Below are positions 34,384-56,727 of a DNA stretch of 64,000 bases, piece after piece. Under the pieces are notes generated by a model. It did no database searches and was not told the DNA's origin. It saw only the letters and a list, made by a program, of their open reading frames with translations. The position numbers were made by a program, and so were the translations under genes. The DNA comes from Stenomitos rutilans HA7619-LM2 (GTDB lineage Bacteria; Cyanobacteriota; Cyanobacteriia; Leptolyngbyales; Leptolyngbyaceae), in contig JAHHIE010000035.1 in NCBI GenBank assembly GCA_019358945.1, positions 1 to 64,000 of the forward strand. Reading direction: 5' to 3'. Numbering within the stretch: the first letter of the stretch is position 1; each line of letters opens with the position of its first letter.

Positions 34384-36009
34384 CTATGGGTTGCCTCGGA
34401 TCACACCGCGAGCGACAAGAGCACCCACTGTTTCCAGCTTAAAGCCCCACCCTTGCGGCAAATTATTGTCGCCGTCGTTTTGGCCCAAATCGACGTAGAT
34501 GCGAGGTGGTACAAAATATGCGCGATCGCCCGCGCCAACCAGCATTTCATCGGCTTTTTGCATCACGGCGTCGATGGCGGCGTCGAACGCTGCTGCTGAG
34601 CTGTAGGACTGATCAAGCTGCTGGCTCACCAGAGCAACGAACTGACTTACCCCAATCACTTTTGGGTCGCTTGACGGTAAATCTTGCAGCCCTAATTGTT
34701 GCAGAAGGGCAGGCTCCATAAACTTAAAGAGCCTTGCCTGTGCGTCAATTAACTTTTCATTCCCAAACTTATCGCGGGGTAAAAGTGTGTGGTATGCACG
34801 ACGGATCACCTGCGAAATCTTAAAGGGTGGGAAGGGTAAGCTATTGGGTGCGATCGTCTGTCCATTTCGCGTCATTAGCTCATCCAGTGGGGGTAAATCT
34901 TCTGGGACTGGCGGCATGGAGATGCTGAAGGCTTTGAACTCGGGATTTCCAGTTTTCGTGCTCAGTAGGTTTGCCTTCTTGTTATTTTGCAGTTCCTTGA
35001 GTTCCAAAATTTGCTTCGCCTTAAAGCTATCGCCATCCAGCAAACTGGTAATGGTCTTTAAGTTGAAGGGGTAGACTGGCGTATTCAAGCCAATAAACAT
35101 GAACTCGGCACAATAGGTCTTATTGGCTGGATCGTTGAAAAAGGTTAGTGCGCGTGGATCGCCGACAGCCGCAAGTAAACCATTCTTCAAAAATTCCTTC
35201 AGAGTGGCGCGATCGGACACCCGTGTGGGATCACCACCGTTATAGTCTTTTGGAAACTGAGCAAAGGGATTAAGCAGTGCAAACCAGTTGATGATGGAGT
35301 TGGTGTAACCGCGTGCTTGTTCTGGCGTGACAAAGGCTGGGAAGACGAGGCGCTGTGCCACTGCCACATACCCATCTTTACCGTACAGGCCGCGATGGTA
35401 GTCATTTGGTTCATTGAAGGTGCCAAACGAATCAATCAGCTTGCCGGTCTTATCCAACCGCTGAGCGGGAACAATCGCGCCAGCATGATGGCCTTCATTT
35501 TTCATAAATGCTTCTTGAAAAAGTTCTGCACTTAGCGGGCTGCGGGTGTCGATCGGGGTGCCGTAGCGCTCTTTGTGCCACTGATAAGTACAGATCAACA
35601 ACCCATCTCTTGCTAAAAATTTAGCAATATCGGCGTGACCAGAGACGGTATTGCCTGCTGGATCAGTCACGCTCACGGCATCTGTAATGCCGATATAACC
35701 AGGAACCGCGATCGTTGGCACGTCAATGGTGGTCGTGTCGTCGAGGATGACTTGCTTGGTAAACAGTCGCTTCAAATCTTCGACGGGCTTGCCCTTCCAA
35801 TCACCTGTGAGCGCGTTGAAGCGGCTGATGTCGATCGCTTTTGGCTCTCGCAACGGCACAGTCGCAGTGCTCGTGGCGTTGGCTGGTCGTGTTGGTGTGG
35901 CTGCACTGGACGCGCTCGTAGAAGACCTTGCTCCAGCTGTGGTGGTGCTAGCAGAAGCGCTGGCAGGAGCAGCGGGCACTTGTTCCAATGGTTTTTGATC
36001 TGAAGGCAT
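34384..36009 (-). CDS. Large protein of unknown function
   Basis: The 541-aa protein starts with about 50 residues rich in Ala, Ser and Thr (SASASTTTAGARSSTSASS) that look disordered, followed by a folded region from about residue 55. It has no signal peptide or membrane helix. I do not recognise the family. Two features stand out: GHHAGAIVPA (173-182) and KTYCAEFMF (297-305). A histidine block followed by a C-x-E-F block is the order found in permuted papain-like enzymes, but the spacing is long and I would not name it so. I chose ATG at 36009, with AAGG upstream, over the longer frame to 36114. A terminator follows the gene. Confidence 0.7.
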   Translation of the reverse strand: MPSDQKPLEQVPAAPASASASTTTAGARSSTSASSAATPTRPANATSTATVPLREPKAIDISRFNALTGDWKGKPVEDLKRLFTKQVILDDTTTIDVPTIAVPGYIGITDAVSVTDPAGNTVSGHADIAKFLARDGLLICTYQWHKERYGTPIDTRSPLSAELFQEAFMKNEGHHAGAIVPAQRLDKTGKLIDSFGTFNEPNDYHRGLYGKDGYVAVAQRLVFPAFVTPEQARGYTNSIINWFALLNPFAQFPKDYNGGDPTRVSDRATLKEFLKNGLLAAVGDPRALTFFNDPANKTYCAEFMFIGLNTPVYPFNLKTITSLLDGDSFKAKQILELKELQNNKKANLLSTKTGNPEFKAFSISMPPVPEDLPPLDELMTRNGQTIAPNSLPFPPFKISQVIRRAYHTLLPRDKFGNEKLIDAQARLFKFMEPALLQQLGLQDLPSSDPKVIGVSQFVALVSQQLDQSYSSAAAFDAAIDAVMQKADEMLVGAGDRAYFVPPRIYVDLGQNDGDNNLPQGWGFKLETVGALVARGVIRGNP

Positions 36010-36143
36010 ACGATAGACCTTGTGTAGTGGGCTGTAGAGAGCAGACTGCTGTGAGGCTAGCGGTTGCGCAACCCTTGACAGCAGTCTATTCTTTGCTAGA
36101 AGTATTTCTATCAATCTCTACAACAACGATCGCCACATTCCGG

Positions 36144-36860
36144 TCAACGGACTCCGCCAAAGACTGCAAGTTCAAAAAACTTGAAGAAACAGTCTACTTG
36201 TTGAAAGCCGATCGTTCGCAGCCATTCGCACTGCACCTCAACAGGGGCAAGGATATTCGCCTTTTTATCTTCTCGATAGACAAACGTTTGCCCAATTTCC
36301 TCGCGCGATCGTCGATCGCCCTGCGTTTGATGCCATTGGTAAATCGCATCAACCAGCGTGTCGTTAAACAACGCCTCAACCCAGGGGTCTGCTGAGGCCA
36401 CGTGTTCGAGATTGAGGAAGCTGCCGCCTGAGCGCAAGTGGTGAAAGATCTCGCGGTATAGAGACTGCTTGCGATCGTCCGGCAAATGGTGAATGCAGTA
36501 GCCGGACACGATCGCGTCAAAGCTCCCTAGACCCGTTTGCCAGTCAGGCGTGTACAAGTCGGCCTGCATCAGGGTTACTCGATCGCCAAAGGGCTGCAAG
36601 CGCTGCTTTGCCTGTTCCAGCATTGGCTCTGAAAAGTCGATCGCGGTGATGTGTGCTGTGGGGTAGCGGGTGAGAACAGCCTGGGCGATCGCCCCATCAC
36701 CGCAGCCCAAATCGGCAACCTGTGTGATGGGCATATGCAGCTGATCGAGTACACGCAGAGCAATGTTGATCTGCTCCGTTGCAAACGGAATAGCACCGCG
36801 TACACCCGTCAAAAAGCTTTCTGCCACGGCGCGGTTTTGCCAGATTTGATCAGTTCTCAT
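36144..36860 (-). CDS. Class I SAM-dependent methyltransferase
   Basis: The 238-aa protein has the Rossmann-like methyltransferase motif I VADLGCGDGAIAQAV (about 42-56), motif Post-I ITAIDFSEPMLEQA, LMQADLYT and motif DAIVSGYCIHHLPD. Motif order and length fit small class I enzymes of the UbiE/Methyltransf_11/25 type. It methylates a small molecule that I cannot identify. The ribbon-helix-helix gene ends just 2 bp before its start, so both are probably one operon. Confidence 0.87.
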   Translation of the reverse strand: MRTDQIWQNRAVAESFLTGVRGAIPFATEQINIALRVLDQLHMPITQVADLGCGDGAIAQAVLTRYPTAHITAIDFSEPMLEQAKQRLQPFGDRVTLMQADLYTPDWQTGLGSFDAIVSGYCIHHLPDDRKQSLYREIFHHLRSGGSFLNLEHVASADPWVEALFNDTLVDAIYQWHQTQGDRRSREEIGQTFVYREDKKANILAPVEVQCEWLRTIGFQQVDCFFKFFELAVFGGVR

Positions 36861-36862
36861 GC

Positions 36863-37198
36863 TTAAGCGTCCTGCAAACTGGTAGCACTGAGGGGCACCA
36901 TGCCTCCCGTCGTCGTCAGCCCTAACAGCATCGGTTCATTGGGTTGGATGAGTTTGCCTGTGAGCATACAGCGTTCTTCTTGACGTGCGGTGGCAGGAAC
37001 CGTGACGCGAATTTCGGGCAGAGCTTGCAGCGGGTAGTCTCCCGATTTTTGCTGTACGTACTGCCAGAGGACATCACGAATAAGTGCCTGGTAGCCTTGA
37101 TTGCCGGAGAGTTCTTTGAGTTTTTCTTTTAACTCCCGCTCCAGACGAATACTGGTGACTTCCATGTCAGTGGTGGCGGTGCGGGTAAGTGTATGCAT
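36863..37198 (-). CDS. Ribbon-helix-helix-like protein, hypothetical
   Basis: The 111-aa protein has an N-terminal ribbon-helix-helix pattern, MEVTSIRLERELKEKLKELS followed by GYQALIRDVLWQYV. This is the shape of CopG/Arc-type DNA-binding proteins or antitoxins. The second half has TARQEERCMLTGKLI and is probably a small separate domain. Its downstream partner on the strand is a methyltransferase and not a toxin, so I read it as a regulator or an unknown cyanobacterial protein. ATG at 37198 has AAGGAG upstream, better than the longer frame from 37237. Confidence 0.7.
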   Translation of the reverse strand: MHTLTRTATTDMEVTSIRLERELKEKLKELSGNQGYQALIRDVLWQYVQQKSGDYPLQALPEIRVTVPATARQEERCMLTGKLIQPNEPMLLGLTTTGGMVPLSATSLQDA

Positions 37199-37317
37199 TA
37201 CGGGACTCCTTCTAATGGTGGACAGTTCGTAATACAAGTGTAGTATGTTGAGTCAGTTATGCAACCGATCGCTCAGACTACCCGCCCTAATTTGTGCCAC
37301 TTACAGTATCAACCAGA

Positions 37318-37797
37318 TCACGAAAACAGTTTGCGTAGCTTTTTGAGCGCCTGTTCAATCTCCGTTAACTCTTGCTCGTTTAGCTTGCCAAAGCGTTCTT
37401 TCAAGTAGGCAATGTGAGCCGGAAAAACCTTTTCAAACACGCGATCGCCCTCGGTCGTCAGCACAATCATGAAGCAGCGTCGGTTTTCGGGTGGCACTTC
37501 GCGGCGTACCAGTCCTTTGCGCTCCAGGCGATCAATGATGCCCGTTAACGTTCCTTTGGTGACGAGCGTTTTTTCGGCAAGCTGCCCCATCGTCATGCCT
37601 GCTGTGTTGCCCAGTGTACAGATCACGTCAAACTGAGGAGACGTTAAGTTTAGCTGACGAATATGATCTTCGTCATAAGCGCTAAAGGCTTGAAACGTCC
37701 GGGCAAGCTCCCGCATGACTGGCAGAAAGGGTTCCTGTGCAGCTTGTCGGGTGGCTGATTGTCGCGCTGCTGTGTCTTGAACGTCTGTCTGCGTCAC
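37318..37797 (-). CDS. MarR-family transcriptional regulator
   Basis: The 159-aa protein has a MarR winged-helix domain: NLTSPQFDVICTLGN, MTMGQLAEKTLVTKGTLTGI (helix-turn-helix) and IDRLERKGLVRREVPPENRR (wing). It should be a homodimeric repressor or activator that responds to small phenolic or redox signals. The N-terminal 20 residues are Ala/Gln/Thr-rich and likely disordered. Its target is unknown; the nearest genes on the strand are the ribbon-helix-helix gene and the methyltransferase 120 bp downstream. Confidence 0.92.
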   Translation of the reverse strand: MTQTDVQDTAARQSATRQAAQEPFLPVMRELARTFQAFSAYDEDHIRQLNLTSPQFDVICTLGNTAGMTMGQLAEKTLVTKGTLTGIIDRLERKGLVRREVPPENRRCFMIVLTTEGDRVFEKVFPAHIAYLKERFGKLNEQELTEIEQALKKLRKLFS

Positions 37798-37962
37798 TGG
37801 TCACCTCTAAAAACATGCTTTTCAGTGAGATTCATTAAACGATGTGCAGTTGAATACCTCGGCCCATTCAATATAGCTTATAGACAGTACTAGTGCAAAC
37901 AAAAGGGCGAGACATCACTGCTTGAATCGCTTCTAGGTTCTCGTCTATTAAGGATAGAGCTG

Positions 37963-38064
37963 ATACCAATTTGAATTGAAAATGCGACACATCCTGTAGG
38001 GGCAAGGCAATGCCTTGCCCCTACCCACCGATTGATCTGTAGCCGTCATTCTTTAAATCGGTAT
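37963..38064. mobile_element. 102-bp MITE-like element, copy B (inverted)
   Basis: This is the same 102-bp unit as at 34141 but in the opposite orientation, reading ATACCAATTTGAATTG first and ending AAATCGGTAT. The central palindrome GGGGCAAGGCA/TGCCTTGCCCC is intact. It lies between the MarR gene and the following small gene. Nothing else of note is seen in 37798-38166. Confidence 0.8.
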
Positions 38065-38166
38065 GAGCACCGAAGCTAGACAAGGCGGATTTCTTCAGCT
38101 AACTCATCTGCTTCAAAGAGCAGCGATCGCCTCCCGATTAGAAAGACGATCGCGCAATTACGAAGA

Positions 38167-38532
38167 CTACGCGGCTTTCTTCTGGCGCATGGGGCGCTTG
38201 TAGGCGGATTTTTTCTTGCGTCCGACCGTTTGGGCTTCGCTGCTATCGGCTCCAAACTGGGCAATGACGGCATTTTTGGCTTCCAAAATGGTGTTATGAA
38301 ACGCCCACTCAGCTAAACGAGCGGCATCCAGCGCTGCACGATACTGAGCCTTGAGCTGAGCTTCAAGCTGTTGTGATTGCCGCATCTCTGCCTGAGCCTG
38401 CTCAATCTGTGGGATAGAGGCTTCCTGGCGCTGAGGGGTATAGTCTGTGATGGTCTGCAAGCCCTGAAAGATGTCTTGATCGGCGTTCAGGATGCTGAGG
38501 CTGAGACGATTATTGGTGTTTTGCGTGAACAT
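38167..38532 (-). CDS. Small helical protein with basic C-terminus, hypothetical
   Basis: The 121-aa protein has an N-terminal part with DQDIFQGLQTITDYTP, a long helix (AEMRQSQQLEAQLKAQYRAA) and a basic tail SAYKRPMRQKKAA. The pattern AVIAQFGADSSEAQ before the basic tail reminds me of a group of cyanobacterial hypothetical proteins, but I have no function for it. The start ATG at 38532 sits 12 bases after a GGGAA sequence. It stands alone on this strand. Confidence 0.65.
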   Translation of the reverse strand: MFTQNTNNRLSLSILNADQDIFQGLQTITDYTPQRQEASIPQIEQAQAEMRQSQQLEAQLKAQYRAALDAARLAEWAFHNTILEAKNAVIAQFGADSSEAQTVGRKKKSAYKRPMRQKKAA

Positions 38533-38829
38533 AATTGGGATTCCCTGATGATGGACGTGGAGAGGGTCAAGCTTCCCTTAACCCCAGACAAATTGGGTAG
38601 GGGAGCCAGGAGTTAGAAGTCAGGAGTTAGAAGGATGGCGACTTTTGGCTTCTGGCTCCCTTCTGCCCGCAGTGGGCTGGCGTTAAGTTGGTCGCGATAG
38701 GCTGAAGGTGCCCTGATCGCACTCTCGAACGCATCACTGTGGCGCTGGCTTTAAGGACTCTTCAAGCAAGTGCCAGAAAGAGGGGCGATCGAGTCACGAG
38801 ATTTACCAGTACTTCATCTCGACGGGTCG

Positions 38830-38934
38830 ATTCGTGCGATCGTCGGGGCAATTCAATTGATCGACGAGTCAATTCGTTCAATCGACGAGCCGATTGGTGC
38901 GATCGACGAGCCGATTGGTGCGATCGACAGGGCA
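38830..38934. repeat. Five 21-bp tandem repeats
   Basis: Five direct copies of a 21-bp unit lie head to tail at 38830, 38851, 38872, 38893 and 38914. The best copies contain ATTGGTGCGATCGACGAG. Each has a CGATCG or related core, the HIP1-type hexamer. An extra degenerate half unit precedes the array and one follows it. Confidence 0.8.
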
Positions 38935-38946
38935 ATTCGTTCTCTT

Positions 38947-38979
38947 AGACCTCGGAGGTTTTGAAAACCTCCGAGGTCT
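38947..38979. repeat. Perfect palindrome AGACCTCGGAGGTTT
   Basis: The arms AGACCTCGGAGGTTT and its complement meet around TGA, so the unit can form a strong hairpin on either strand. The outer AGACCTC motif recurs in the hairpin at 51682-51714. It could be an interspersed repeat or end transcription into the NTPase gene from upstream. Confidence 0.75.
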
Positions 38980-39169
38980 GGGTGATTCGAGGGACACCTT
39001 GGAGATGTACAGGACAGCTAAGGTTGCCAGGGCTGGGCTTGGAGCGATAGGAAAGGGCAAGACGACTGACGTTCTCTCACAGCCACGGTTGCGGTTGGCA
39101 AGGGAACCGTACCCTGTAGGATAGAGGAAGCGTACTTGATCGGCTGAGCCTGATCTCGATTGGAACTCT

Positions 39170-40504
39170 ATGACTGATTATCGTGCCAAAACGTTGAAGG
39201 AAGCCTTTCAACTCTGCGATGTCGATCCCCTGGTGGGTGCAGGGTTAGAGCGGTACTACGTCGATCTGGCACCCGTGCGTAAAACTGAAGCGATCGAAGG
39301 GATCAACACGAATTTAGAGTTTCAAGAAGCAGGAGATTTTTGCACGCTTCTCTTCACGGGACATCGAGGCTGCGGCAAAAGTACCGAGCTTCAACGCATT
39401 CGCCGCCAATGGGAACAAAATTACCGGGTGATTTACCTGGAAGCGAATGAAGAAACCGATATCAACGATGCCGAATATACCGACTTTTATTTGATTGTGA
39501 TTAAGCAAGTCGAATTTGCCCTGCGAGAGATGGGGCTGAGTTTTGATGCGGGGTTGCTCACAAGCTTTGAAAAGTGGTTTATGGACGTGACTCAAGAAAA
39601 TGAACAAACGATTGAGAGTTCCATTAATGTTCAGGCTGAGGCGAGTTTAGCAGGTGGCGCTCCTCTGATTGCCAAGCTACTCGTTAAGCTGCTGGCGCAA
39701 ATCAAGGGATCGGATAAGCGAAAAACGGTGATTCGGCAAGTTTTGCAACAGGATATTTCGCGATTAAAAGCGGATGTCAACCTGCTGCTACGAGATGCGT
39801 ATCAAAAAATTAAAGATCGCTATCCCAAAGGGTTTCTCGTTATTTTTGATAACCTCGATCGCGTTCCGCCTCAGGTTGGTAATCATTTATTTTTTGACTA
39901 CGCGGCTCAGCTTCAAGAGTTAAATTGCACCATTATTTACACAGTGCCAATTTCCGTGTTGTGTTCGCCTAAAAACATCTTCAATACCTTTGGTGAACCC
40001 CATATCGTTTCGATGGTGAATGTCTATCAGTTGGTGCGCGATCGCTATGAGCTTGACGACAAGCTTGATGGACTGACGTGCCTAGCACGGATTATTGAGA
40101 AGCGGGTGGATGCTGCCCAGGTATTTGAGTCAGAAATTGAGATGATGAGCCTGGTGCAGGCAAGCGGGGGGCACGTGAGGCAGTTGATGCAAATGATGCG
40201 GAGCGCGTGTCAAACAGCCAGCACTCGTAAACACGCCAAAATTCAGGCAGAGGATGTGGAGTATGCTGCCAAGCAGCAGCAGTTTAACTTTGAGCGGTTT
40301 ATTCCCGACGACCACTATCCGCTGCTGGCAAAGGTTTGTTTGACGAAGAATATTACCAAAGATGAGACGGGTCAGTTAATGCTGTTCAACACGTCTGTTT
40401 TGGAATACAACGGGCTGGATCGCTGGAATTTTCCCAATCCAGCCGTGCGCCGCAGCGAACTGTTTCAACGAGCACTGAGGGACATCTTGCCATCAAATGC
40501 CTGA
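39170..40504 (+). CDS. P-loop NTPase, first gene of NTPase-TPR pair
   Basis: This 444-aa protein has a P-loop GHRGCGKS (64-71) and a Walker B FLVIFDNLD (222-230) with a downstream sensor-like segment TIIYTVPISVL. This is the plan of STAND/AAA-type signalling ATPases. The C-terminal 120 residues contain GGHVRQLMQMMRSACQTA, a helical block, and a probable winged-helix-like end. There is no signal or membrane segment. The last eight bases overlap the start of the TPR gene, so the two proteins are made together. I infer a conformational switch that uses ATP or GTP and is controlled by the TPR partner. No nuclease or protease motif is visible. Confidence 0.85.
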   Translation: MTDYRAKTLKEAFQLCDVDPLVGAGLERYYVDLAPVRKTEAIEGINTNLEFQEAGDFCTLLFTGHRGCGKSTELQRIRRQWEQNYRVIYLEANEETDINDAEYTDFYLIVIKQVEFALREMGLSFDAGLLTSFEKWFMDVTQENEQTIESSINVQAEASLAGGAPLIAKLLVKLLAQIKGSDKRKTVIRQVLQQDISRLKADVNLLLRDAYQKIKDRYPKGFLVIFDNLDRVPPQVGNHLFFDYAAQLQELNCTIIYTVPISVLCSPKNIFNTFGEPHIVSMVNVYQLVRDRYELDDKLDGLTCLARIIEKRVDAAQVFESEIEMMSLVQASGGHVRQLMQMMRSACQTASTRKHAKIQAEDVEYAAKQQQFNFERFIPDDHYPLLAKVCLTKNITKDETGQLMLFNTSVLEYNGLDRWNFPNPAVRRSELFQRALRDILPSNA

Positions 40505-42407
40505 GCTTTCCACGATCGATCGTCGTTCATTTCTGGAGCAGAATCAGCAGGAGTTTGCTGAACTGCTGACGTTTATTGATTTTGCTGAGGGACTGACGAT
40601 CGGCTTCGTCGAGGTGAATCAAGAGCAGGAGAAAGGTATTTTAGTCGAGGCGTTGCGGGAGCATCTTGCCGATACAGCGATTCGTTTAGAGGTGTTGAAT
40701 TTTTCTCAGGAGCGGGACTTGCGATTTTTGCGCGATGCCTTGATCCAGCGGCTGACGCGCACCGAAACGGGTAAAAAGTTGGTGCTGCTGATTCAAGGGT
40801 TGGAAGTGGCGATCGGCATGGATGGCGTGGGGGCATATCCGCCGCTTTTACAAGATTTGAACTTTGTGCGGGATGCCTATCGCCAGAGTGTGCCGCATCC
40901 CCTGCTGTTTGTGCTGCCCGATTATGCCATTACCCGGATTAGCCAGTACGCGCCTGATTTTTATGCCTGGCAGTCGGGCACCTTTCGGTTTAAGACCTCA
41001 ACGCAGAATATTGAGCAGTTGCGGGTTGAGGCAGTTGAGCAGCCGTTACGCAGAATAGCATCGAGTGAGAATCAAGCCCAGATTCAGCAGCTACAGACGC
41101 TGTTGATGGAGCTTCGTCCGTCTGGGAAAGCGATCGCAACCCAGGACGTACACCTCTGTAGCGAGGTTTATTACAAGATTGGGTCGGCATACCTGACGCA
41201 GCAACAGCCAGAGAAGGCAAAAGATTATTTTCTAGAAGGTTTGAAGGTGATGGACAAGCATCCTGATCCAGTACTGATTCAAAGTCTGCACCGTAGGCTA
41301 GGCAATGCATACAAGCAGATGCGGCAATTTGAGAAGGCTGTTGCCACCTACGAAACAGCGCTGAAGCTTGCTCAAGCGCTAAATCAATCTGAACGGATTT
41401 CAATCGGCTTTGCCGATCTGGGGGATATCGCACTAGAGCAGCGGCAATTTGAGCAGGCGAGAGCGTTCTATCACCAAAGCTTAGCCATCAATGAAAGCCT
41501 GGGCGATCGCTACTCCCAAGCCAGCACCTACCACCAATTAGGCATCGTGGCACAGGAACTGCGCGAGTTTGAGGAGGCACGCCGCCACTACCAGCAGGCA
41601 CTGCAACTCTACGCCGAGTTCAACGATCGCTACCGCCAAGCCAGCACCTACCACCAATTAGGCATCGTGGCACAGGAACTGCGCGAGTTTGAGGAGGCAC
41701 GCCGCCACTACCAGCAGGCACTGCAACTCTACGCCGAGTTCAACGATCGCTACGAGCAAGCGGGTACCTACCACCAATTAGGCATCGTGGCAGAGGAACT
41801 GCGCGAGTTTGAGGAGGCACGCCGCCACTACCAGCAGGCACTGCAACTCTACGCCGAGTTCAACGATCGCTACGAACAAGCAGGCACTTACCACAACTTA
41901 GGCAGCGTGGCACAGGAGTTGCGCGAGTTTGAGGAGGCACGCCGCCACTACCAGCAGGCATTGCAACTCAAAATCGAGTTCAACGATCGCTACGAACAAG
42001 CAGGCACTTACCACAACTTAGGCAGCGTGGCACAGGAGTTGCGCGAGTTTGAGGAGGCACGCCGCCACTACCAGCAGGCATTGCAACTCAAAATCGAGTT
42101 CAACGATCGCTACTCCCAAGCCAGCACCTACCACCAACTAGGCATTGTGGCGCAGGAGTTGCGCGAGTTTGAGGAGGCACGCCGCCACTACCAGCAGGCA
42201 CTGCAACTCTACGTCGAGTTCAACGATCGCTACAGCCAAGCAAGTACGTTTAATCAGCTAGGGTTGTTGACAGAGGCAGAAGGCGACCCGGCAGACGCGA
42301 GAACCTGGTTACAGCAGGCGTTGGAACTCTTTGTGGAATTTGGCGATGAATACCGTGCAGCGATCGTTCAGCGGAATCTCGATCGGCTTGAAGGGTCGGG
42401 GGAGTAG
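40497..42407 (+). CDS. TPR protein with degenerate NTPase-like N-terminus
   Basis: Residues 1-190 of this 636-aa protein look like an NTPase relative that has lost its active site. A GLTIGFVEV strand leads to NQEQEKG, where a P-loop would be; KKLVLLIQGLEV stands where a Walker B aspartate would be, with Q in its place. From about 215 the rest is tetratricopeptide repeats. Six 40-residue units (DNA 41521-42240) of the type YHQLGIVAQELREFEEARRH are nearly identical, with more diverged units on both sides. TPRs bind other proteins or peptides. The start overlaps the NTPase gene. I read it as the sensor or scaffold half of the pair; the function is inferred. Confidence 0.8.
   Translation: MPELSTIDRRSFLEQNQQEFAELLTFIDFAEGLTIGFVEVNQEQEKGILVEALREHLADTAIRLEVLNFSQERDLRFLRDALIQRLTRTETGKKLVLLIQGLEVAIGMDGVGAYPPLLQDLNFVRDAYRQSVPHPLLFVLPDYAITRISQYAPDFYAWQSGTFRFKTSTQNIEQLRVEAVEQPLRRIASSENQAQIQQLQTLLMELRPSGKAIATQDVHLCSEVYYKIGSAYLTQQQPEKAKDYFLEGLKVMDKHPDPVLIQSLHRRLGNAYKQMRQFEKAVATYETALKLAQALNQSERISIGFADLGDIALEQRQFEQARAFYHQSLAINESLGDRYSQASTYHQLGIVAQELREFEEARRHYQQALQLYAEFNDRYRQASTYHQLGIVAQELREFEEARRHYQQALQLYAEFNDRYEQAGTYHQLGIVAEELREFEEARRHYQQALQLYAEFNDRYEQAGTYHNLGSVAQELREFEEARRHYQQALQLKIEFNDRYEQAGTYHNLGSVAQELREFEEARRHYQQALQLKIEFNDRYSQASTYHQLGIVAQELREFEEARRHYQQALQLYVEFNDRYSQASTFNQLGLLTEAEGDPADARTWLQQALELFVEFGDEYRAAIVQRNLDRLEGSGE
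41521..42240 (+). repeat. Six nearly identical 120-bp tandem repeats in a TPR gene
   Basis: Units begin at 41521, 41641, 41761, 41881, 42001 and 42121, each 120 bp with no insertions. Long stretches such as GAGTTTGAGGAGGCACGCCG are the same in all six, including synonymous sites. Differences cluster at the unit edges (YHQLGIVAQ or YHNLGSVAQ; LYAEF or LKIEF). Confidence 0.95.
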
Positions 42408-42609
42408 GGAATAGGGAATAGGGTGCCAAGCGGTGCGGGATGAAGGGCGATCGCCCCTGCTGTGACGCTGCAATTGAAGGGAGAGCGATCGGTGTGCGGG
42501 ACGGACGAGTAGTGGGGTAGAGGGGCGATCGTGCCAGGATTTGCTAAGATTGACGCACCCAGTTTTCCACCCTGACAGCGTTACAGCAGCGTTTCTGGAG
42601 CTTCCTGCC

Positions 42610-43200
42610 ATGACTCAAACTGCACCCAGTGCCCCCAAGTTAATGACCATGACGGAATATCTTGCCTATGACGATGGCACCGACACGCGCTACGAATTGG
42701 TGGATGGAGCATTAGTCGAGATGCCTACAGAATCTTTTGGAAATAGTAATATTGCCAAGTTTTTGCTGTTTGAGTTAGCTAAATATGTACCGCTATTGTT
42801 GGTTGCTTACAATACCGAGGTGGAAGTTTCGGGCAGAAGGGCGACCTGTCGTATTCCCGACCTTTTGTTACATACGGAAGAATCTGCTGCCGCTTTAGCT
42901 GAAACAACTCGTAATGTGATCACAAAGGATATGCCTCCACTCGCTTTAGTGGTTGAGGTCGTGTCACCTGGTACAGAAAATCGGGACGGAGACTACCGCT
43001 TCAAACACACAGAATATGCCGCACGAGGGATTGCGGAATACTGGATTATTGACCCCGAACAGCAGCAAGTAACCCTGTGCCTGTGGGTGAAGGGGCAATA
43101 CGAAGACACAGTTTATACGGGCGATACGCCTCTGGCTTCAACAGTCATTCCTGGTTTTAAGCTGAGCGCTGCTCAAATGCTGGCGTTTGGACAAAATTAA
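42610..43200 (+). CDS. Uma2 family (DUF820) putative endonuclease
   Basis: The 196-aa protein has a PD-(D/E)XK-like restriction fold: YELVDG (E29), CRIPDLLL (D84), VVEVVSPG (E116) and K132 in YRFKHTEYAARG, then EYWIIDPEQQ. These are the conserved Uma2 positions. Cyanobacteria carry many copies, and the cellular role is not settled. The ATG at 42610 follows GCTTCCTGCC; a longer frame to 42541 has no family similarity. It lies 203 bp after the NTPase-TPR pair on the same strand, so a functional link is possible but spacing is too large to prove an operon. Confidence 0.88.
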   Translation: MTQTAPSAPKLMTMTEYLAYDDGTDTRYELVDGALVEMPTESFGNSNIAKFLLFELAKYVPLLLVAYNTEVEVSGRRATCRIPDLLLHTEESAAALAETTRNVITKDMPPLALVVEVVSPGTENRDGDYRFKHTEYAARGIAEYWIIDPEQQQVTLCLWVKGQYEDTVYTGDTPLASTVIPGFKLSAAQMLAFGQN

Positions 43201-43234
43201 GTATCCATTTGCAAACAACTGTAATTCACGAGCC

Positions 43235-44767
43235 TCAGCACTCGTTAGTAGGAGACAGCAGGGAGGTTTCCAACGCCTGCCCGATCGTCTTTATTTCTTC
43301 TAACAAGCTTTTGAGATGGGCGATCGTGGTGCGAGGATTCAGCAACGTGACCTTCAGATAGACAAAATCGCCAATCTGCGTTTGAGCAATGATGGCTTGT
43401 CCTGTTTGTATTAACTTCAGACGAATGGCTTGATTAATTTGATTGGATAACGCCGCTGTTGCCTGGTTTGAGGGCTGGCTTTGAGGAACGTAGCGAAACA
43501 CAACTGCGTTGATAGTCGGCATTGTGACAAGCTCAAAGGCTGGGTCAACCTTTAATAAAGCAGCCATTTCTCGCGCGGTGTCGATCGTTGTCTCAATCAT
43601 ATCTGCAAAGGTTTTGCGACCCAGGCATTGCATTGACATAAAGAGTTTGAGTGCATCAAATCGCCGCGTCGTTTGTACCGATTTGACCACTAAATCGAGA
43701 ATGTCCAACTGCTCATTTGTTTCGGGATTTAAATAATCAGCATGTAATTTCAGTAGATCAAAGTTGGTGCGTTCTTTAGTCAGAAAAGCGCCACAGCTAA
43801 TGGGTTGGTAAAACAGCTTGTGGAAGTCGATCGTCAGTGAATCAGCCGCTGCAATGCCATCCAACAGATGACGATACGTATCACTCATGATTAAGGCTCC
43901 ACCATAGGCTGCATCCACATGCAACCACAAATCATAGGCTTGAGCCAGTTGAGCGATGCCTGGTAGTGGGTCAATGCTGCCAAAATCAGTCGTGCCCGCT
44001 GTTGCCACAATCGCGATCGGACATAACCCTTCCTGCTGAAGTGCGATGATCTGCTGTTCCAGGTGGGATGGCGATAAGCGATAGTCGGCATCGGTTGGCA
44101 CTGTAACAACAGCTTGATGCCCCAACCCTAGCAAAGCTGCCGATTGCCGCACCGTGAAGTGCGCCACATCAGAACACAAGATCCGAAACTGGGCGGCTTG
44201 AGGCGGTAATCCCTGTTCTTGAATTGACCATTGCAAGTGCTTTTTGGCATAGCGATCGCGGGCTAACAGCAATCCCATAAAGTTTGACTGGGTACCACCA
44301 CTGGTAAACACCCCATCCGCTTGATGGTTAAACCCAAAGAGTTGACACAAGCCTTCGATGACAGATTGTTCTAAAAATGTGGCCGCCGGACTCTGATCCC
44401 ACGAATCCATTGATTGGTTGGTGGCGCTAATCAACAGCTCTGCTGCCAGAGACGGTACCAGAGACGGGCAGTGCAAGTGTGCAATACAGGTTGGATGCGA
44501 AACATTGGCAGAATGTTGAATGACCAGTTCTCCAACTTGCTGCAACACATCGGACAAGGGATTGCCTTGTTCAGGACATAGCTCAAAATCAAATTCAGGA
44601 AACTTATACTGTTGCGGCATCAAGCCGCTGTAGGCTTGAGTGGATGACGCAAAATGTTGAATTAGGATCTCAGCAGCGTCTGCGATTGCAGCCTTGTAGC
44701 TGCTAATGCCATCGGCAGATTGATTCAGAAAAAAGTGGTCGAAACGGCGATCATGATCGAAGGTCAT
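43235..44767 (-). CDS. ddc: L-2,4-diaminobutyrate decarboxylase
   Basis: This 510-aa PLP enzyme of the group II decarboxylases makes 1,3-diaminopropane from diaminobutyrate. The cofactor lysine is K317 in IDFHKLFYQP; HVDAAYGG (283-290) binds the pyridine ring, and TSGGTQSNFMGLLLARD is the phosphate-binding region. The N-terminal blocks SHPTCIAHLHCPSL and NQSMDSWDQSPAATFLE are typical of the diaminobutyrate enzymes. I chose ATG at 44767, where the family start MTFDHDRRFD is; a longer frame runs into a MITE-like element. The aminotransferase that supplies diaminobutyrate lies upstream on the same strand. 1,3-diaminopropane is a common siderophore building block. Confidence 0.88.
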   Translation of the reverse strand: MTFDHDRRFDHFFLNQSADGISSYKAAIADAAEILIQHFASSTQAYSGLMPQQYKFPEFDFELCPEQGNPLSDVLQQVGELVIQHSANVSHPTCIAHLHCPSLVPSLAAELLISATNQSMDSWDQSPAATFLEQSVIEGLCQLFGFNHQADGVFTSGGTQSNFMGLLLARDRYAKKHLQWSIQEQGLPPQAAQFRILCSDVAHFTVRQSAALLGLGHQAVVTVPTDADYRLSPSHLEQQIIALQQEGLCPIAIVATAGTTDFGSIDPLPGIAQLAQAYDLWLHVDAAYGGALIMSDTYRHLLDGIAAADSLTIDFHKLFYQPISCGAFLTKERTNFDLLKLHADYLNPETNEQLDILDLVVKSVQTTRRFDALKLFMSMQCLGRKTFADMIETTIDTAREMAALLKVDPAFELVTMPTINAVVFRYVPQSQPSNQATAALSNQINQAIRLKLIQTGQAIIAQTQIGDFVYLKVTLLNPRTTIAHLKSLLEEIKTIGQALETSLLSPTNEC

Positions 44768-44834
44768 AGCACAGTAAATAAGACTGGTTAACAGACAAAT
44801 TTCTAGTAGAGATGCGTTGCACAAACGTTTGATC

Positions 44835-44972
44835 GGGAGCATGTCACCTTTGCGCCCTCGCCCTACATCCCTCTCCCAGAGGAGAGAGACTTTGAGTCTT
44901 GCTCCCTTCTCCTTGAGGAGAAGGGCTGGGGATGAGGGCAGAAGCAGCAACTTGCGAAAGTGACATGCTCCC
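44835..44972. mobile_element. MITE-like element with 9-bp target duplication
   Basis: The ends are a perfect 13-bp inverted repeat, GGGAGCATGTCAC and GTGACATGCTCCC. The element is flanked on both sides by CGTTTGATC (44826-44834 and 44973-44981), a clear 9-bp target-site duplication. Inside is a long hairpin-like sequence with CTCCCTTCTCCTTGAGGAG. It is non-coding and lies just upstream of the decarboxylase. Confidence 0.85.
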
Positions 44973-45080
44973 CGTTTGATCAAGTAAGAGAGCTAATAAG
45001 CTAAAACTTGGTGAAGCAACAAATAAGCCTGGTTGATGGAGAAATTGTTGCTTGGGTGGGCAGCAGCATAGATGGAAATA

Positions 45081-45182
45081 ATACCGATTTAGAGAATGAC
45101 AGCTACAGATCAATCGGTGGGTAGGGGCAAGGCAATGCCTTGCCCCTACAGGATGTGTCGCATTTTCAATTCAAATTGGTAT
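45081..45182. mobile_element. 102-bp MITE-like element, copy C
   Basis: This is the third copy of the 102-bp unit (others 34141 and 37963), in the same orientation as the first and differing from it at only a few positions. The outer ATACCGATTT/AAATTGGTAT ends and central palindrome are intact. Together with the element at 44835 it fills most of the gap between the aminotransferase and decarboxylase genes (44768-45231). Confidence 0.8.
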
Positions 45183-45231
45183 AAGTTAAGAGCTGCCTTG
45201 TAGCGGAATGTATTTTAGAGACATCTAGCGC

Positions 45232-46560
45232 CTAAGCAGAGGCTTTGACAGCAGCATGAAAAATCTCAGCAATACTGTCAATTTGTTCAGGTGTCACGAT
45301 GAGAGGTGATAGGAACCGAATGACGCTGCCATAACGGCCCCCAAGCTCTAAAATTAAGCCTCGATCGAAACAAGCCCGCTGAATTTCACGTGCAATCTGT
45401 GGATCGTTGGGGTACACACCTCGCCCACTGCATGGTTTGTCAGGATTAACCATTTCCACACCCAGCATTAATCCACGCCCACGCACATCTCCAATGCAAT
45501 TATGTTCAGTTTGAATGTTTTGCAAGTGGGCTAAAAGGCGATCGCCCATAGTTTGTGCATGTGCGGCCAGTTTTTGCTCACGGATGTAGCGGATGCTTGC
45601 CAGCCCTGTAGCCATCGCTAATTGGTTGCCGCGAAACGTACCCGCATGAGCGCCAGCTTGCCAAACATCCAGAGATTTGTGGTAAACGATAACTGATAGG
45701 GGCAAGCCACCACCGATCGCTTTGGAAAGCAACAAGACATCGGGAATAATGTCACTATGCTCAAAGGCAAAGAGCTTTCCAGTTCTGCCCCACCCAGTCT
45801 GAATTTCATCCACAATCAGTGGAATCATGTGCTCTTGCGTGATTCGTCTAATTTCTCTCACCCACTCATCCGGTGCAGGAATGACACCGCCTTCTCCCTG
45901 CACCAACTCTAGAATCATGCCTGCGGGCTTCCCAACGCCACTTTCAGGATCACCAAGGATTGATTTAATATAGTGGCTACTGACCCAGCTTCCTTTTTCA
46001 CCTCCCAAACCAAAAGGGCAGCGGTAGAGATAGGGGTACGGTAGAAACTGAACCTCTGGCATGAGAGCAGCGACATCGTGTTTCGGAGCTAAATTGCCCA
46101 TCAGGCTTAACGCTCCATTGGTCATGCCGTGGTAAGCTCCATCAAACGACAGCATAGTACGCCGACCTGTTGCTGTTTTCACTAATTTAATAGCGGCTTC
46201 TGTAGCATCAGCACCGCTCGGTCCACAAAATTGAATTTTTGCGTTGTGAGCAAATTCGGCTGGTAAGCTCTGCCAAATTTCCTCAACAAATGCATCTTTG
46301 ATAGGAGTAGTGATATCTAGTGTTTGCCAGGGTAAATTGCTGCTCAGTGCTACTTGCAGTGCTTCTATCACGATCGGGTGATTGTGTCCTAATGCCATTG
46401 TGCCTGCGGCGGACAAACAATCGAAATAAGACTTACCGTTTGTATCAGTGATGTAAATGCCCTTTGCTTCTTTGATTGCAATTGGAATGCGTCTGGGATA
46501 GCTGCGTGCATTCGATTCTCTTTCTTGCTGACGGTTCAGGTAATCAAGCGGCTCTTTCAT
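45232..46560 (-). CDS. dat: Diaminobutyrate--2-oxoglutarate aminotransferase
   Basis: This 442-aa class III aminotransferase makes L-2,4-diaminobutyrate from aspartate semialdehyde, using glutamate. The cofactor lysine is K280 in LLLSKAIGGGLPLSV, with VDEIQTGWGRTG (250-261) binding PLP and CGPSGADATEAAIKLVKTAT the family block seen in the EctB/diaminobutyrate group. It pairs with the decarboxylase further along the strand to give 1,3-diaminopropane. Two MITE-like elements separate the two genes. The start ATG 46560 is the first in the frame. No siderophore synthetase is in view. Confidence 0.88.
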   Translation of the reverse strand: MKEPLDYLNRQQERESNARSYPRRIPIAIKEAKGIYITDTNGKSYFDCLSAAGTMALGHNHPIVIEALQVALSSNLPWQTLDITTPIKDAFVEEIWQSLPAEFAHNAKIQFCGPSGADATEAAIKLVKTATGRRTMLSFDGAYHGMTNGALSLMGNLAPKHDVAALMPEVQFLPYPYLYRCPFGLGGEKGSWVSSHYIKSILGDPESGVGKPAGMILELVQGEGGVIPAPDEWVREIRRITQEHMIPLIVDEIQTGWGRTGKLFAFEHSDIIPDVLLLSKAIGGGLPLSVIVYHKSLDVWQAGAHAGTFRGNQLAMATGLASIRYIREQKLAAHAQTMGDRLLAHLQNIQTEHNCIGDVRGRGLMLGVEMVNPDKPCSGRGVYPNDPQIAREIQRACFDRGLILELGGRYGSVIRFLSPLIVTPEQIDSIAEIFHAAVKASA

Positions 46561-55744: not shown

Positions 55745-55959
55745 TCCCTGGTTCCTCTGATGACGACTATGATCAATATAGAGTGCATCCCTCAGCGATC
55801 GCTGCTGCTAATGGTGCAATCTCAGTCAAAATTGTGACAGTCTGCTTGATCGTTAGGCTGTTGCACTTAAAAAAGCTGCACATTAGAGTTTGGCTTCATC
55901 CGTCGCCGCCTTTGAGCCATGTGTAGCTATTATTGAGAGCTTTTCCAGGAACTACCTTT

Positions 55960-56727
55960 ATGAAACCGAATGCTTCTGTGCTGGCTGTGGCAGGTGCCTT
56001 TTCGTTAGCAGCACTTGCTGGACTAGCCGTTGCGTGTTCCCAGTCTTCTGTAACCGAGCCATCGGGAGCATCACCCAGCGCAGCGCCGATTGCATCCCCC
56101 GCCAATCGGCCGTCTCCTAACCCTTCTCCTGCCGCTTCTACCCCGACGACGACACAAAAGCAACCCACTGAGGCTGCCCCCAACTCAGCGCCTACCGCAA
56201 ATCGCACCGTTGAGTCATGCGTGGTAAAGATGGCTTTAGTGAATGACCCAAAGCCACCGCTTAATGTCCGTTCGACCCCCACAACTGATGGTGAGAACGT
56301 TGTCGGTCAATTGAAAAACAATACCCTTGTCACTGTCGCAGACGATCAAAACGGCTGGCTTCAGATTAAATCACCGCTCAAGGGCTGGATCTTTAAGGCA
56401 CAAACCGTCAATAGCTGCAACGAGAAAGTGGAACGCCTCAGCCTGAGTGCTGATGGAGCCACGCTGCCGATCGCTGATCGCTTTGTTGGTACGGGCAGCC
56501 ATCGCTACGTTTTTCCTGCCACGAAGGGGCAAACATTGACCATCACCCACGATCGAGGCCCTTTCCCCATGCTCATTGCTCCCGATGGAACCGTTCTGCT
56601 AGCACATGAGAAAGACGAAAAGCGAACCGACTGGAGCGGCACAATTGAGCAAACGGGCGATTACACCCTTCAGCTAGAGTCAAACTTTAGGGGATATCGC
56701 TACGGGTTTTCGATGCAGGTGAAGTAG
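55960..56727 (+). CDS. SH3-domain lipoprotein
   Basis: The 255-aa protein begins with a signal sequence (MKPNASVLAVAGAFSLAALA) ending in a lipobox-like AVAC, then a Pro/Ser/Thr-rich linker of about 60 residues. A bacterial SH3 domain (about 108-150) follows: PPLNVRSTPTTDGENVVGQL, NGWLQIKSPLKGWIF. The remaining 100 residues form a beta-rich domain with GTGSHRYVFPATKGQTLT and GDYTLQLESNFRGYRY, like a pre-peptidase C-terminal or similar stalk module. It should sit at the membrane outer face or in the periplasm. I do not know its role. Confidence 0.82.
   Translation: MKPNASVLAVAGAFSLAALAGLAVACSQSSVTEPSGASPSAAPIASPANRPSPNPSPAASTPTTTQKQPTEAAPNSAPTANRTVESCVVKMALVNDPKPPLNVRSTPTTDGENVVGQLKNNTLVTVADDQNGWLQIKSPLKGWIFKAQTVNSCNEKVERLSLSADGATLPIADRFVGTGSHRYVFPATKGQTLTITHDRGPFPMLIAPDGTVLLAHEKDEKRTDWSGTIEQTGDYTLQLESNFRGYRYGFSMQVK

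Follow-up and report, generated by a model that had tools for sequence, protein, structure and literature searches.

In nSTAND2 systems, as described by Kaur et al. (2021; PMC8195603), two adjacent genes encode STAND-type domains of which one has eroded NTP motifs; the fusions are variable, those of the inactive protein being most often GT4 or HEPN effectors. A gene pair of comparable plan is found at positions 39,170 to 42,407 of the DNA analyzed here, the first 64,000 nucleotides of contig JAHHIE010000035.1 of the cyanobacterium Stenomitos rutilans HA7619-LM2 (assembly GCA_019358945.1), a stretch called the window below. The first gene encodes an ATPase and the second a protein in which an AAA+ domain without catalytic motifs (the dead domain) precedes an array of tetratricopeptide repeats (TPRs). 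We consider the chances about even that the two genes form a split recognition switch similar to the NOD-like receptors (NLRs), with the dead AAA+ domain as the adaptor for the separately encoded ATPase. No published description of the pair was found in a search made largely without subscription papers or supplements. The genes are arranged as follows.

39170..40504, + strand: ATPase gene, ORC/Cdc6/STAND-like, 444-residue open reading frame (ORF); AlphaFold 2 (AF2) model and VIA matches
40497-42407, + strand: TPR-protein gene, 636-residue ORF
40497..40504, + strand: overlap of the two genes, 8 nt, from the ORF coordinates

The window pair resembles nSTAND2 in plan, having an active and an inactive STAND domain encoded in adjacent genes, but not in its effectors: the inactive partner in the window has TPRs, and those of the scanned relatives have TPR, CHAT, nSTAND1 or WD40 domains rather than GT4 or HEPN. 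While the nSTAND2 family is described as nearest to CR-ATPases, S29/Dap3 and RNA12, the commonest of the weak Pfam matches of the window ATPase family are to ATPase_2, AAA_22, AAA_16 and KAP; this is a comparison of family assignments, the alignments not having been compared. The iSTAND MoxR-vWA ternary systems likewise have an inactive STAND/AAA+ component, proposed as the sensor, and they are reported from cyanobacteria, proteobacteria and bacteroidetes with enrichment in multicellular forms (Kaur et al., 2020; PMC7159879). In contrast, the window pair has two components, its dead domain is N-terminal to the repeats, and no MoxR or vWA gene adjoins it. In BREX a short inactive STAND/ORC-like protein, BrxB, and an active ATPase of the ORC/Cdc6 clade, BrxC, belong to one defence system, but BrxC has 1200-1300 residues, the accessible portion of the source describes no TPR sensor for BrxB (PMC12839542), and no BREX gene lies beside the window pair. 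Pfam detected no MoxR, vWA or BREX (PglZ, BrxX) gene among the eight flanking ORFs of the window, and the pair as it stands there belongs neither to the MoxR-vWA ternary systems nor to BREX.

Two further likenesses concern the repeats. Fungal NLRs have a STAND switch, near-identical TPR, WD or ANK repeats and selection on the concave side of the TPRs (Dyrka et al., 2014; PMC4986451); they are single proteins with a NOD switch, whereas in the window the switch ATPase is separate and the putative receptor's own AAA+ domain is dead. Putative antigen sensors of multicellular bacteria are tied to nSTAND1, KAP, TIR, CHAT and ternary systems (PMC10907252), but they are diversified by diversity-generating retroelements acting in C-type lectin domains, while here TPR duplication is seen.

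The ATPase and the dead AAA+ domain

The initial annotation had reported an intact P-loop and Walker B in the first protein, an overlap of the two genes, and an N-terminus of the second protein with the same strand order but with neither GK[ST] nor the Walker B aspartate, followed by TPRs. All of these observations held when the window pair was aligned with its relatives and modelled. The motifs of the ATPase are the following.

39359..39382, + strand: Walker A, GHRGCGKS, residues 64-71; G64, H65, G67, G69 and K70 identical in 130/130 aligned relatives
39833..39859, + strand: Walker B, FLVIFDNLD, residues 222-230; D227 in 130/130, D230 in 128/130
40166..40180, + strand: GGHVR motif, residues 333-337; G334 and R337 identical in 130/130

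G....GK[ST] and D227 are thus kept in the ATPases of all 130 aligned pairs, and GGHVR is taken by us to occupy a sensor-2-like position. The matches of the window ATPase to Pfam (ATPase_2 with E 8.5e-5, AAA_14, AAA_22, Cdc6_lid and others) are all weak and under the family cut-offs. Among 61 members of the ATPase family the commonest matches at E 0.01 are ATPase_2 (60 members), AAA_22 (58), AAA_16 (55) and KAP_NTPase (52), and DAP3 is matched by a single one. A sequence search of the PDB with the ATPase gave P-loop-level and chance matches only, and PADLOC and NCBIfam searches with both window proteins gave TPR or weak matches only. The AF2 model of the ATPase, made from 61 sequences, has a pLDDT of 93.0 and a pTM of 0.91; in the VIA comparison with the PDB it matches ORC/Cdc6 (7jgr_G, 2qby_A) with Z 15.0, SSO1545 with 14.2, NRC4 with 13.8 and CED-4 with 13.6. 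Its description as a STAND-type ATPase needs the correction that ORC/Cdc6 is equally close (15.0 versus 14.2 and 13.6), and on its modelled fold and its motifs the window ATPase belongs to the ORC/STAND assemblage.

The second protein begins with the features below; its Pfam TPRs start at about residue 222, and only TPRs were found by Pfam behind the dead domain.

40497..41111, + strand: dead AAA+ (iSTAND-like) domain, about residues 1-205; AF2 model and PDB matches, without Pfam family
40794..40805, + strand: QGLE, residues 100-103, in the position of Walker B; of the two acidic residues only the second is retained, correspondence by motif
40860..40871, + strand: NFVR, residues 122-125; N122 in 122/130, R125 in 128/130
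40950..40970, + strand: APDFYAW signature, residues 152-158; D154 in 130/130, W158 in 124/130

No dead domain among the 130 aligned has GK[ST]. In the strand-3 motif xGLE, position 100 is unconserved and position 103 is E or D in 125/130; the correspondence of this motif with DNLD of the ATPase is our own reading, based on the motifs and not on an alignment. N122, R125, D154 and W158 are the best-conserved polar or aromatic residues of the domain, and Arg125 is its most conserved basic residue. With an AAA+ core and both Walker motifs lost, the domain can be called iSTAND-like. Residues 1-208 matched no Pfam family at E 0.1 in the window protein; in 58 members, 18 families match one or two members each (best E 0.0031), and a PDB sequence search with the domain found no match.

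The model of residues 1-208, made from 58 sequences, has a pLDDT of 88.9 and a pTM of 0.80, with five strands alternating with helices. Together with the PDB comparison it indicates an AAA+ fold over residues 1 to about 170, without catalytic motifs. It is matched best by AAA+ proteins such as ORC/Cdc6, TnsC, RFC and Pex1/6. Foldseek, which had been proposed as the check on the NTPase-like nature of this N-terminus, bears it out: the best match is archaeal ORC2 (E 1.6e-5), and Sir3, Rif2 and ORC subunits are in the first 50. VIA gives Z 12.2 for TnsC 7ufi (3.5 A over 159 residues) and Z 10.7 for Cdc6/Orc1 2qby. Both lists are lists of folds, not functions, and a family missing from them may still match. 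Sir3 and Rif2 are inactive AAA+ proteins; they and the eukaryotic ORC subunits act in replication, silencing or at telomeres, and the resemblance to the dead domain is one of fold only. The inactive partner had been regarded as a relative of the ATPase. We maintain this from the fold only, because the comparison of the ATPase and dead-domain profiles by hhalign is not significant (p 0.087 and 0.022).

Column 273 of the ATPase, which precedes strand 5, holds Arg in 65 of the 95 distant members and mostly Q, L or T (21/35) in the subfamily of the window. Our guess is that it might be an arginine finger; that R125 of the dead domain could compensate is speculation.

Pairing of the two genes across genomes

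The 8-nt overlap of the two genes suggests that their translation may be coupled. The relatives were surveyed in 146 genomes of the phylum, where the rows analyzed are those among the matches listed. The ATPase was found in 44 genomes, in six of them by weak matches only (E 2.2e-4 to 2.6e-6), and the dead domain in 37. Of the 126 full-length ATPases listed, 108 are followed by a dead domain on their own strand and no more than 3 kb away, with a median gap of 44 nt between match ends, and 107 of the 150 listed dead-domain rows could be assigned to an upstream full-length ATPase. By the size of the open frame, the assigned and unassigned rows number 6 and 19 up to 220 residues, 51 and 11 from 221 to 1000, 12 and 5 from 1001 to 1500, and 38 and 8 above 1500. 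When 46 proteins of 221-1000 residues were read by eye behind the dead domain, 42 entered TPR-like repeats and four (L045, L050, L066, L072; loci are numbered with L, genomes with G and contigs with C) resembled shortened long forms.

A similar picture emerged from GTDB contigs, of which the best 80 of 537 confirmed places were scanned, a sample that leans to close relatives. The dead domain is present in 70 of these 80 loci, always downstream and on the same strand. Some of the partnerless loci end near the ATPase, within about 900 bases of it (L152, L153, L158, L175, L181) or within 1.5 kb (L192), while in L160, L176, L185 and L203 the downstream sequence is present and the partner absent. 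Four of the 70 are on contigs of metagenome-assembled genomes, assigned to Ca. Parabeggiatoa (L140), Chloroflexi (L155), Ca. Anammoximicrobium (L156) and Acidobacteria (L157); these may be misbinned, above all L140, with its 56% identity to the window. In several loci the ATPase or the dead domain is shortened or split (e.g., L068, L147, L149, L154, L157, L158, L159). An apparent fused ATPase of 852 residues in Planctomycete L156 was discarded, its extension being, by eye, an out-of-frame reading of an upstream MoxR-like gene.

The two partners also covary. For ATPase ORFs of 381-559 residues with dead-domain matches of at least 141 residues, the pairwise distances of the two proteins correlate with r 0.92 over 130 pairs, a value that possible near-duplicates may inflate, the pairs coming from two genome collections. 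Shuffling partners within genomes lowers r to 0.52 on average and 0.67 at most (500 shuffles). Between paralogues within genomes r is 0.78 (60 comparisons, 18 genomes), which none of 2000 shuffles reached, and this correlation is not due to species history because the comparisons stay inside one genome. An active NTPase paired with an inactive, sensor-carrying partner, as initially proposed, is thus consistent with the motif counts, the AAA+ fold and an adjacency that holds in most relatives.

One genome has as many as nine dead-domain matches among those listed, standalone domains included. The source genome (G000, 7.28 Mb) encodes the full ATPase five times. Apart from the window, copies C93 and C76 each consist of an ATPase followed by a dead-TPR protein, in C42 the ATPase is followed by a protein of 1083 residues with the dead domain, a helical region and nSTAND1, and the ATPase in C16 has no adjoining dead domain. 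Contig C15 of the same genome has an extra dead-domain frame (55913-56587) and a separate ATPase fragment (120-242), possibly remnants. Of 72,556 plasmid records, 8 contain the ATPase and 7 the dead domain.

TPR arrays and their variable positions

The repeats of the window protein comprise the following two features.

41160..42338, + strand: TPR sensor array (Pfam TPR_12 and others)
41504..42241, + strand: recently amplified TPR core, 6.2 copies of 120 bp with 93% matches

Arrays whose units are at least 75% identical inside one protein were compared. The search for them used regular expressions matching 34-, 40- and 42-residue units and misses others. Qualifying arrays occur in 18 of 156 dead-domain ORFs (86 of a first and 70 of a second set), and among all other ORFs examined there is a single one, in L147. 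The most variable positions of TPRs, 2, 5, 9, 12, 13, 33 and 34, lie on the concave face (Magliery and Regan; PMC1261162). We scored 2, 5, 9, 12 and 13 as contact positions and left out 33 and 34 in all runs but one, the 40- and 42-residue units having no sure register there.

Over the 18 arrays the pooled ratio of nonsynonymous to synonymous change (pN/pS) is 1.73 at the contact positions (1.10-3.04 by bootstrap over arrays) and 0.50 elsewhere (0.43-0.61). The share of amino-acid changes that fall at contact positions is above expectation in every array (0.27-0.80 versus 0.12-0.15), while that of synonymous changes is at or below expectation in 15 arrays and above it in three (L041 with 0.14, L047 with 0.16 and the window with 0.22). 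Array by array, with the looser measure that takes pS from all sites, the contact positions exceed the rest in 18/18 and are above 1 in 15/18. A like regime has been described for the TPRs of fungal NLRs, in which the positively selected sites are on the concave side (Dyrka et al., 2014; PMC4986451).

It is possible, though we think it rather unlikely, that this is an ordinary TPR pattern produced by relaxed surface constraint and recent duplication, with no role in recognition. The scored positions are the most variable ones in TPRs generally (PMC1261162), the array of L147, whose gene directly follows a dead-domain gene, shows the pattern more weakly (0.28 of the changes at contact positions versus 0.12 expected), and three of the 18 arrays are below 1. 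Relaxed constraint alone, however, would raise pN/pS up to 1, and both the pooled value and its lower bound are above this. No qualifying array was found in 17 other TPR regions of G000, and a housekeeping control for pN/pS is missing for that reason.

A proposed recognition switch and its rivals

If the pair is a split, NLR-like switch, the second protein would be the receptor and its TPR array would bind the target. Once a target is bound, the dead domains would become exposed or clustered, each docking on the separate ATPase much as an inactive ORC subunit does, and would seed an ATP-bound ATPase complex that triggers the output. In some relatives the output might be built in, as a TIR domain on a second ATPase or a CHAT domain after the TPRs, and some receptors would carry nSTAND1-WD40 as their tail where others have only TPRs. 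For the window pair, the output would fall to the ATPase or to a protein from another locus. The folds, the loss of catalytic motifs, the genetic pairing, the covariation, the effector fusions of some relatives and the diversification of the TPR face in the pooled arrays are computed results; that the two proteins dock, that ATP drives their assembly, that they sense a target and that they serve to recognize non-self or to kill the cell is inferred. A defence role is plausible from the sequences, being supported indirectly by the TIR, CHAT and STAND fusions of some relatives and by the TPR diversification.

The fusions are found in a small number of variant loci. Two full ATPases stand in tandem in L064 and in L123 (on a Calothrix sp. 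NIES-4101 plasmid), as was noticed in no other locus of the surveys, and each time the second of them carries a fused TIR domain (E 1.2e-31 and 1.5e-33). Each also encodes a protein with two dead domains, an arrangement present in 1 of 86 ORFs of the first set (L064) and 0 of 70 of the second. L140 (4272-7562) encodes a dead-TPR-CHAT protein (CHAT E 2.4e-51). An nSTAND1 domain follows the dead domain in L006, where TPRs are weak, and in L064, where none were found; nSTAND1 and WD40 follow it in L114 and L055. In L081 a kinase-AAA_16-GAF-PAS gene comes after a standalone dead domain. On a plasmid of Nostoc sp. C057 (L122:4099-9272) the ATPase domain (E 3.4e-48) is the last domain of a SAV_2336-type protein, presumably a vWA protein, which sits behind VMAP-C and MoxR genes in a VMAP-MoxR ternary system; the ATPase family is therefore used in a conflict system of a described kind.

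Several observations weigh against the recognition switch. The profile comparison mentioned above is not significant, and among the 116 neighbour genes scanned there is no conserved third gene. No full-length ATPase could be assigned within 3 kb upstream to 43 of the 150 listed dead-domain rows, and 19 of the 25 standalone dead domains are among these; by eye, five of the 43 adjoin a partial ATPase (G064, G078:C46, G133:C233, G133:C185, G022:C1:655990), one is the second domain of a tandem (G024:C20), and three are in rows of a dead-TPR gene, an ATPase and a second dead-domain gene (G022, G030, G074). Two dead-domain genes accompany one ATPase, by eye, in L107, L110, G022:C1:3749645-3753273 and L006. 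The contact positions are below 1 in L132 (0.88), the window itself (0.83) and L134 (0.75), unit pairs inside one array are not independent, and the TPR pattern was seen first, in nine arrays, the published positions being tested afterwards. The CHAT domain of L140 has Gly at the expected catalytic Cys and may be inactive. Finally, the ATPase was matched in 0 of 50,697 phage records, and a scan of viral contigs with one narrow motif gave 18 motif matches and no relative.

As unlikely as an ordinary TPR pattern, in our judgement, is a housekeeping machine for signalling or assembly, with an ORC-like remodeller ATPase, the dead domain as substrate adaptor and TPRs that bind cellular clients. TPRs often bind cellular proteins, the window has no visible defence island, and the source genome has its five ATPase copies. 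The commonest neighbour family is that of FtsQ-type POTRA proteins (14 of 116 genes by Pfam, no family being higher), suggesting a stable chromosomal place. For such a machine, the TIR and CHAT fusions of a few relatives, the plasmid copies, the patchy distribution (44 of 146 genomes, six weakly) and a pooled pN/pS above 1 at the TPR contact positions would be unusual. We give still less weight to a nucleic-acid sensor, in which the dead ORC-like domain would bind invading DNA or RNA, alone or together with the ATPase, and the TPRs would relay this to an effector. Its fold is ORC/TnsC-like, and inactive STAND domains have been proposed as nucleic-acid sensors (PMC8195603, PMC12839542). The dead domain, however, has one near-invariant basic column (125) and two more that reach 60% R or K (129, 150), and the diversification was found on the TPR face, the TPR units being what was examined. 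Least probable of all is an inhibitor or cap, the dead domain keeping the ATPase inactive and standalone copies acting in trans: 25 of the 150 listed dead domains are in frames of at most 220 residues, 19 of them without an assigned ATPase within 3 kb, such genes recur beside the same neighbours, and L107 and L110 have two dead-domain genes per ATPase, but inhibition alone leaves unexplained both the sensor arrays and the doubling of dead domains with doubled ATPases in two loci.

The recognition switch can be extended, with less confidence than the switch itself though more than any of these rivals, to a new split family of bacterial NLRs, in which the dead ORC-type adaptor of a diversifying TPR or STAND-WD40 receptor would recruit the ORC-type ATPase encoded upstream, cyanobacteria with large genomes would hold a repertoire, and standalone dead domains would be trans-acting regulators. 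Should this hold, recruitment through dead AAA+ subunits would be a principle of immune switches, with a parallel in the inactive ORC subunits, and bacterial receptors with NLR-like diversifying TPR faces would be open to study in tractable cyanobacteria. The pair offers a domain without Pfam family, a predicted partner gene and predicted target-contact residues, and both halves are testable.

A strict one-to-one rule of ATPase to dead domain was dropped, being broken by the four loci with two dead-domain genes. In L107 (2303-7382) and L110 (2885-6650) the dead-TPR gene, the ATPase gene and the second dead-domain gene follow consecutively on one strand. Standalone dead domains of 160-212 residues, with no ATPase in the stretch read, are found at L006:1625-2188 and in L084-L095; by eye, they recur with the same neighbours across genomes in L086/L090/L094 and in L088/L089. 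Beside the C42 paralogue pair, L006 (8476-13685) has three tandem AAA_35-like STAND genes (Pfam, for the first two), the first fused to TIR, with integrase-like and Uma2-like genes nearby by eye.

The neighbours were surveyed as one gene on each side of the related pairs. Out of 118 called genes 116 were scanned, both neighbours in L156 being excluded for overlapping frames and doubtful gene calls. PADLOC at E 1e-10 matched 93 families in this set, for which there was no control set; each of the 25 listed matched between one and three genes, and they include type II restriction-modification and Cas12f/TnpB-like models. At the window itself the pair is not visibly in a defence island, and the eight flanking ORFs (34384-46560) encode, by Pfam, a methyltransferase, MarR, Uma2, a pyridoxal phosphate (PLP) decarboxylase, a class-III aminotransferase and three proteins without family. 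The PLP decarboxylase gene adjoins the class-III aminotransferase gene (43235-46560), a combination that presumably is like the diaminobutyrate pathway. Upstream of the ATPase gene there is a 21-bp tandem repeat of 5.8 copies with 76% matches (38819-38940).

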